Below are positions 53,896-55,965 of a stretch of DNA of 64,000 nt, piece after piece. The notes below the pieces were generated by a model. It searched no databases. It was not told where the DNA came from and saw nothing but the letters and a program-made list of their open reading frames with translations. The translations under genes were made by a program, and so were the position numbers. This DNA comes from Prevotella veroralis DSM 19559 = JCM 6290. GTDB taxonomy: Bacteria; Bacteroidota; Bacteroidia; Bacteroidales; Bacteroidaceae. Positions within the stretch are counted from its first letter, which is position 1. The number at the start of each line of letters is the position of its first letter. Location of the stretch: NCBI RefSeq assembly GCF_000377625.1, contig NZ_KB898325.1, positions 310,001 through 374,000 of the forward strand, written 5' to 3'.

Positions 53896-54759
53896 TTAAT
53901 GAGTTAATATCTCCACTCCATGTTCAGTCATAACAAATGTATGCTCCCATTGAGCTGAAGGCTTCTCATCACCTGTGATAACCTCCCAACCGTATGGGTC
54001 GTCAGCATCAATAAATACCTTCCATGTACCCATATTTATCATTGGTTCTATGGTAAACACCATACCAGGAACTAGCAACATTCCTGTTCCTTTATGCCCA
54101 TAATGCAAGACATCTGGTTGCTCGTGGAACTCAATTCCAACGCCATGACCACACAAATCACGTACAACGCCATAACCATTCTTCTCTGCGTGCTTTTGAA
54201 TTGCATGACCAATATCACCAACAAAAGAATAGGGTTTTGCGGCTTCAGCACCTAGTTCAAGGCATTCTTTAGCTACTCGAACCAAGCGTTCCTTCTCCGG
54301 AGTTGTCTTACCGCCTACAATAAACATACGACTTGCATCGGCAAAATATCCATCAACAATCGTCGTCATATCAACGTTGACTATATCACCTTCTTGAAGA
54401 ACATCCTCCTCCTTTGGAATACCATGGCAAACAACCTCATTTATACTCGTACAAACGCTCTTAGGATAGCCTTCATAATTCAAACAAGCAGGAATGGCGT
54501 TATGATCTTTGCAATACTGCATACAAATATCGTCTATCTCCTGCGTATTCATTCCCACATGGATAGCCTCACCTACAGCATCTAAACAACCAGTATTCAC
54601 TACCCCACTCTTGCGGATACCTTCTATCTGCTCAGGCGTTTTTATCATATTGCGAGTAGGAACCAGCTTGCCTTGTTTCTCAAACGCCATTATCTTTAAA
54701 TCCATTTCGGTTGGCTCTTGTCCCGGAAGGCAATGCCACCTCTTCTTCTTTAATTGCAT
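53896..54759 (-). CDS. map: Type I methionine aminopeptidase with N-terminal extension
   Basis: 287 residues. Removes N-terminal Met. The core begins near residue 40 (MIKTPEQIEGIRKSG) and contains the metal ligands: NVDMTTIVDGYFADASR (two Asp), GHGVGIEFHEQP (His), FTIEPMIN (Glu) and QWEHTFVMT (Glu). The first ~38 residues (KKKRWHCLPGQEPTEMDLKI) are extra and contain one Cys and one His, too few for a zinc finger. The ATG at 54759 is well placed relative to the promoter at 54781-54811. Confidence 0.95.
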   Translation of the reverse strand: MQLKKKRWHCLPGQEPTEMDLKIMAFEKQGKLVPTRNMIKTPEQIEGIRKSGVVNTGCLDAVGEAIHVGMNTQEIDDICMQYCKDHNAIPACLNYEGYPKSVCTSINEVVCHGIPKEEDVLQEGDIVNVDMTTIVDGYFADASRMFIVGGKTTPEKERLVRVAKECLELGAEAAKPYSFVGDIGHAIQKHAEKNGYGVVRDLCGHGVGIEFHEQPDVLHYGHKGTGMLLVPGMVFTIEPMINMGTWKVFIDADDPYGWEVITGDEKPSAQWEHTFVMTEHGVEILTH

Positions 54760-54780
54760 ATCCGTCTAATTAATTTGGTG

Positions 54781-54811
54781 CAAAAGTACTATAATTCAAA
54801 GATAATACAAA
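54781..54811 (-). promoter_or_regulatory. Promoter of map-tsaD-pncC, TTTG-N19-TACTTTTG
   Basis: On the minus strand TTTG (54808-54811), 19 bp, TACTTTTG (54781-54788), 21 bp before the map ATG. It lies between map and the metH remnant. Confidence 0.85.
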
Positions 54812-54845
54812 ATAAATCAGTTCCTTTTTAGGTATAGAGAAAGCT

Positions 54846-54982
54846 TTAGACCATGGGATTTATCTGTAGTACCATGATATTGGCAGTATCATCATATTTG
54901 CCCATGGAATTGGGTAGACCTGCATTCAGGTAGACACTAATATAATAAGGTGTGTAACTGCTCAGAGTACGCCCTAACAGGT
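54846..54982 (-). pseudogene. metH: Remnant of cobalamin-dependent methionine synthase
   Basis: About 45 codons in one open frame, ending at a TAA at 54846-54848: LLGRTLSSYTPYYISVYLNA, GLPNSMGKYDDTANIMVLQI and NPMV. This matches the end of the homocysteine-binding domain of MetH, where NAGLPN and the following YD are highly conserved. The rest of the ~1200-residue enzyme, including the zinc cysteines and the B12 domain, is absent. The fragment starts at the smpB stop. I infer that metH once followed smpB here and was deleted. Confidence 0.8.
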
Positions 54983-55462
54983 CTAATAATGTTTCCTTGC
55001 CCGATCCATCTCGCGTCGGTCTTCCTTCTCCTTTAGTGTCTGCCGTTTGTCATATTCCTTCTTACCTTTTGCCAATGCAATATCAACTTTTGCACGTCCA
55101 TTCTCATCAATGAATATCAATGTTGGGATAATCGTGAAGCCCGGTGTCTTAGATTCAGCTTCGAGGTTACGTATCTCCTTCTTCGTCAATAAGAGCTTGC
55201 GGGGACGTTTGGCTTCATGGTTAGCGTATGAACCATAGAAGTAAGAAGAAATGTTCATCCCTTGTACCCACATCTCACCTTTATTTATATAACAGAACGA
55301 ATCAACCAGTGAAGCCTTGCCAGCACGGATGGATTTGATCTCCGTACCCGTGAGTACGATACCTGCAGTGAATGTGTCAACAAAGAAGTATTCAAATGAT
55401 GCCTTCTTGTTTCTTATCTGTACAGGTGATTTCTTTCTTCTATCTTGCTGTTCTCTATTCAT
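54983..55462 (-). CDS. smpB: SsrA-binding protein
   Basis: 159 residues. Partner of tmRNA in rescue of stalled ribosomes. Core motifs: [40 protein letters not shown] and [35 protein letters not shown], with a basic helical tail. The start overlaps the DUF4375 gene's stop by 4 bp. I find no tmRNA gene in the window. Confidence 0.96.
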
Positions 55463-55965
55463 TGTTCTATCTTTACAAAATTATCTATATGATCATCAAT
55501 ATAAGCCGCTATCATCTCGCACCAGTACTCCTCATTAACAATAAATTCATCATCGAACTCATCGAACTCTGGCATCTGCTCATACAATGCCATAAAATCA
55601 TCATCAGAGACTTCCTTCTCTATCTCTTCGTGATACTTATCATAGTACTTCTTTGCATGCTTAATATGCGTATAAAGCTCTCGGAGTCCCCAGTTACGCA
55701 TAGCAACGGCAAATGGATTCTTAAAGATAAAGGCACCATAACCATTATAGATTAATTGGATATATCCGCCCTCCATTACTTCTTGATGTAGATAACTCCA
55801 ACCTAACAACGTAATTTGGTCGGCATTTAATTGCGACATAGTCTCTTGTGTCAACTGTCCACCAATAGCCGTATTAATTGCATTAATGAATACCTGAACA
55901 AAACTATCCATGCCTTCTTCAACTGCTTTGCGTATATCGCTATCTTTTACTTTGACGTCAATCAT
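55459..55965 (-). CDS. DUF4375/DMP19-like protein
   Basis: 168 residues, acidic. The central [22 protein letters not shown] matches the family's NGGFxQxxxN-type core, followed by a helical region ([20 protein letters not shown]) and a very acidic segment ([16 protein letters not shown]). DMP19 of Neisseria is a DNA mimic; whether this one acts in that way is unknown. It overlaps smpB by 4 bp, so it is likely co-translated. Confidence 0.75.

Follow-up and report, generated by a model that had tools for sequence, protein, structure and literature searches.

A decayed metH relic between smpB and map in Prevotella veroralis and the probable loss of methionine biosynthesis

Introduction

A short open frame lies directly behind the smpB stop codon of Prevotella veroralis, in the gap that separates smpB from map, and it raises the question of what this sequence once was and what its condition can tell us about how the organism obtains methionine. 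The locus was analysed within a window of 64,000 nucleotides of the P. veroralis genome (G000), a draft of 2.85 Mb in 28 contigs with a completeness of 99.98%, which is the one genome by which the species is represented (n = 1). The original prediction for this DNA had described the frame as the surviving end of the homocysteine domain of MetH, the cobalamin-dependent methionine synthase, at a locus from which the gene had been deleted.

Identity of the segment between smpB and map

Both smpB and map are encoded on the minus strand and are separated by 223 bases. The features of the locus, in window coordinates, are listed below.

54983..55462, minus strand: smpB, intact, with the stop codon TAG at 54985-54983; SmpB is 97% identical to that of P. 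vespertina.
54951..54983, minus strand: metH relic, scrap A, codons 210-220; the sister species have DLSGRTLSGQT there.
54862..54950, minus strand: metH relic, scrap B, codons 259-287 plus 2 nt, PYYISVYLNAGLPNSMGKYDDTANIMVLQ, the end of the homocysteine-binding domain.
54760..54861, minus strand: leader of map, left in place, as recognised by alignment with the map leaders of P. vespertina and G155.
53896..54759, minus strand: map (methionine aminopeptidase), intact, the likely ancestral downstream neighbour of metH.

The frame crosses the smpB stop and is open from there through to a TAA at 54846, and its first residues are smpB bases read in another frame. Profile searches with this minus-strand frame matched the metH family of NCBIfam, TIGR02082 (E 8.1e-6), as well as PRK09490 (E 1.3e-6), and the comparison with P. 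vespertina metH gave 61% identity over 41 residues (tblastn E 2e-13). The match to Pfam PF02574 (E 0.0023, 18.3 bits) fell below the 22-bit gathering cut-off, the score being that of a short piece. With the full MetH protein as the query, the P. veroralis genome returned a single weak match (E 3e-8), and tblastn on the locus found the relic. A profile search against MetH had been named in the original prediction as one test of its reading, and the assignment of the frame to the end of the homocysteine domain was borne out by TIGR02082 and by the tblastn alignment.

The metH-derived DNA spans 54862-54983 (122 bases) and keeps about 40 codons of the gene; the intact domain set is absent, as is a second copy elsewhere in the genome. 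On sequence evidence, the segment is a pseudogene of metH, with a derivation that is above chance.

Gene order in the sister species

Genome G003, taken as P. vespertina A2879, was the nearest sister for the genes of the window and was used as the reference. In P. vespertina, P. histicola, G155 and G169 (SmpB 92%), an intact metH starts a few bases past the smpB stop, and the sisters whose SmpB is 92-97% identical carry the intact gene directly 3' of smpB, with 917 codons where measured. The order smpB-metH-map is present in G155, G169 and P. histicola and is, therefore, the one from which the window locus is likely to descend; in P. vespertina, smpB and metH are adjacent, with map at another site of that contig. 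An intact smpB-metH(-map) arrangement was found across most of the genus. These relatives, whose gene order the original prediction had named as its second test, support the claim that the old metH locus was deleted here. The MetH of P. vespertina contains the domains PF02574, PF00809, PF02607 and PF02310 (homocysteine, pterin and two B12 domains), while the domain search gave no match for the C-terminal reactivation domain in this protein.

Anatomy of the relic

Compared with the intact metH of P. vespertina, P. histicola and most of the genus, the relic is the same gene in the same place and on the same strand, but of about 915 codons P. veroralis keeps only codons 210-220 and 259-287. Scrap A begins within the smpB stop codon, the G of its first codon being also the last base of that stop. 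It was missed by nucleotide alignment alone and was recognised at the protein level; a score of its class anywhere in MetH was reached by 6 of 10,841 random open 11-mers from the window and by 1 of 5,000 shuffles, and the scrap also sits in the colinear place. The two scraps are joined in frame, with 114 nt, exactly 38 codons (221-258), deleted between them.

The bases 54861-54760 are 90% identical to the P. vespertina map leader over 100 bp, and the map leader is 92% identical to that of G155 over 49 bp. As this stretch aligns with the map leader, the residues INPMV and the stop of the open frame are not metH. A third metH scrap at 54830-54861 was considered and rejected, since its DNA alignment to metH scored no better than chance and the bases align with the P. 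vespertina map leader. The interval 54846-54982 that was originally assigned to the relic is, accordingly, mostly metH, but its end at 54846-54861, including the stop, belongs to the map leader. The related statement that the rest of the gene is gone with a clean smpB junction holds for the cut, which falls exactly at the smpB stop, but not for codons 210-220, which also survive.

Alignment with the intact sister genes shows at least three deletions, which took away codons 1-209 (exactly to the smpB stop), codons 221-258, and codon 288 to the end together with part of the metH-map spacer. Inspection of the junctions revealed no repeats other than short or imperfect ones, and we therefore propose no mechanism for the deletions.

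Selection and age

Relative to P. vespertina, 10 of the 40 relic codons carry non-synonymous and 14 carry synonymous differences, while comparisons among the functional sisters (P. vespertina, P. histicola and G169) give 2-4 codons with non-synonymous and 13-21 with synonymous differences. The ratio of 10:14 in the relic against 2:21 in one functional pair gave a Fisher p of 0.017 on this short sequence. The relic is, moreover, altered at G218 and P266, each invariant in 54 of 54 intact MetH segments, and at Q219 (53 of 54). The raised non-synonymous share and the changes at invariant residues indicate that selection on the relic is relaxed and that, as far as its codons can tell, the piece has evolved without constraint for some time. 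The surviving frame does lack a stop, as had been noted in suggesting that the loss may be recent; this suggestion is weakly supported and not established, as an open frame of about 40 codons is poor evidence and invariant residues have changed.

Comparison with P. vespertina provides a bound. The pathway is intact in that species and the metF scraps described below are about 91-93% identical to it at the DNA level, which places the loss of the pathway after the split of the two species. Third-position differences from P. vespertina number 65 of 159 in smpB, 42 of 287 in map and 21 of 40 in the relic. Over window positions 54983-55965, which hold smpB and the upstream DMP19-like gene, DNA identity to P. 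vespertina is 87%, compared with 91-94% for map and beyond. The divergence of the smpB/DMP19-like side relative to the map side suggests recombination in either P. veroralis or P. vespertina. By the third-position counts for smpB and map, the smpB-metH block of one or the other species has a history of its own, which makes simple dating by this comparison unsafe.

The rest of the methionine pathway

No match to PF02574 (HMT), PF02965 (Met_synt_B12) or PF01717 (MetE) was obtained in the 99.98% complete P. veroralis genome, in line with the earlier proposal to search for metH or metE elsewhere; none is present. MTHFR (PF02219) and MetA (PF04204), which P. vespertina, G155 and G169 all have, were likewise not found. 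For PF01053, P. veroralis gave at best a truncated gene, with a full-length gene at the same site in P. vespertina.

The other met loci were located by searching the DNA for flanking sequences taken from the sister, and the metA, metF and metB-type/PatB-type genes are all intact in P. vespertina. In P. veroralis, a 1.83 kb deletion starts inside the metB-type gene, stops close to the end of the neighbouring PatB-type C-S lyase gene and has fused the two, as follows.

L161:6079-6639, contig C9 of G000 at about 73,080-73,640: fusion relic of the metB-type (PF01053) and PatB-type genes; both genes are intact in P. vespertina (L160:4992-7396).

The metA site has lost 1.07 kb, metA included, and its junction holds about 29 bases of unmatched filler (L172, G000:C1:500000-504500). 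The metF gene is reduced to codons 1-12 and 222-258, which sit between intact neighbours (L173, G000:C3:197500-203500).

Within the families searched, MetH, MetE, HMT, MTHFR, MetA and PF01053, nothing was found that would lead from homoserine or homocysteine to methionine. With the genes for MetH, metA, metF and the metB-type/PatB-type pair deleted or broken, P. veroralis probably needs external methionine, and the species is predicted to be a methionine auxotroph that takes the amino acid from its surroundings. A MetNIQ-type methionine importer (PF03180), which was the candidate for a compensating importer, was found in none of the 14 genomes searched. In a host-associated niche, methionine from peptides or from neighbours may have removed the need for the pathway. 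Selection would then no longer have maintained it, and metH could have been eroded by random deletions that stopped short of smpB and map, both of which are needed.

Loss of metH across the genus

At a cut of E < 1e-190, which was set after seeing the tables, strong MetH was present in 66 of the 86 high-quality genomes of the genus surveyed, and all 66 also have MTHFR (metF). The other 20 lack a standard MetH (8 with no match, 12 with a weak or partial one), and MTHFR occurs in none of them. It is established in folate biochemistry that what MTHFR makes can leave only through methionine synthase, and the disappearance of metF along with metH fits this.

A second metH relic was identified in G016 (SmpB 77% identical), directly after the smpB stop (L055:3277-3650). 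Like the P. veroralis relic, it has lost its 5' part by deletion and retains the last portion of the homocysteine domain; unlike it, the G016 relic is longer, carries frameshifts and stops, and has another starting codon and other junctions. It is read as an independent loss, and this second relic, together with the genus-wide pattern, suggests that metH and metF were probably lost more than once. G010, G012 and G098 have a short smpB-map gap with no detectable relic.

Other arrangements were also observed. In Prevotella sp. DNF00663 (L086:3911-4873), a homocysteine methyltransferase ORF of about 320 codons, 52% identical to MetH, stands alone between smpB and map. The MetH-like protein encoded by G004 (L174:394-3429) and G034 (L175) is about 1000 residues long and combines homocysteine methyltransferase and B12 domains but lacks a pterin-binding domain; its long N-terminal region has no Pfam match and by eye resembles URO-D-type methyltransferases. 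As MTHFR was not found in G004, its MetH-like protein could be a folate-independent methionine synthase that uses another methyl donor.

Alternative explanations

The metH-derived segment could have been retained for a function, either as a small gene or as the 3' untranslated region or terminator of smpB. Its frame is uninterrupted between the smpB stop and the TAA, the 114-nt deletion preserved that frame, and G016 too keeps the domain end right after smpB. Against this, residues invariant in MetH have changed and the non-synonymous share is raised, the 5' end of the frame lacks a start codon, and the G016 relic is frameshifted, contains stops and begins at a different codon. An Rfam search around the locus for a riboswitch or other RNA found none, and the short gaps of G010, G012 and G098 do without a detectable relic. 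We regard a retained function as very improbable, and it is just as hard to believe that the domain end was kept in two independent losses for a role of its own, whether in the 3' end of the smpB RNA or as a small peptide. Less credible still, and close to negligible, is that the gap is an artefact of assembly or contamination and that the organism has metH. The assembly is a draft in 28 contigs, but the relic lies inside a contig of 555 kb, the genome is 99.98% complete, and the damage to the other pathway genes lies at loci apart from one another, with intact flanks each time.

The relic may also have been imported by recombination from a lineage with an earlier metH loss, a variant that is compatible with a metH pseudogene and deserves more weight, although we consider it unlikely. 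The contrast in third-position differences between smpB and map speaks for import, as does the high proportion in the relic beside metF scraps of about 91-93% DNA identity. The divergent block could, however, equally be that of P. vespertina, the other pathway genes were lost in the P. veroralis lineage anyway, and a donor carrying the same relic was not found. The reading that we prefer, and hold with high confidence, is that of a decayed, functionless metH pseudogene at the ancestral smpB-metH-map site, one of several losses in the pathway from which auxotrophy is inferred.

Comparison with known systems

The locus and its companions provide a record of a whole biosynthetic pathway dismantled in an oral-group Prevotella whose sister species keeps it, and they yield a direct prediction of methionine dependence in P. 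veroralis. A literature search for metH loss in Prevotella found no direct report. The mechanism is ordinary reductive pathway loss, of a well-known kind, and its documentation here is unusually complete. The Alloprevotella MAG II.B was described as an apparent methionine auxotroph (PMC6282201). As in P. veroralis, methionine biosynthesis has been lost in an oral relative while a related genome keeps the pathway; in Alloprevotella the loss was inferred from gene content alone, whereas in P. veroralis it has left deletion scars at four loci.
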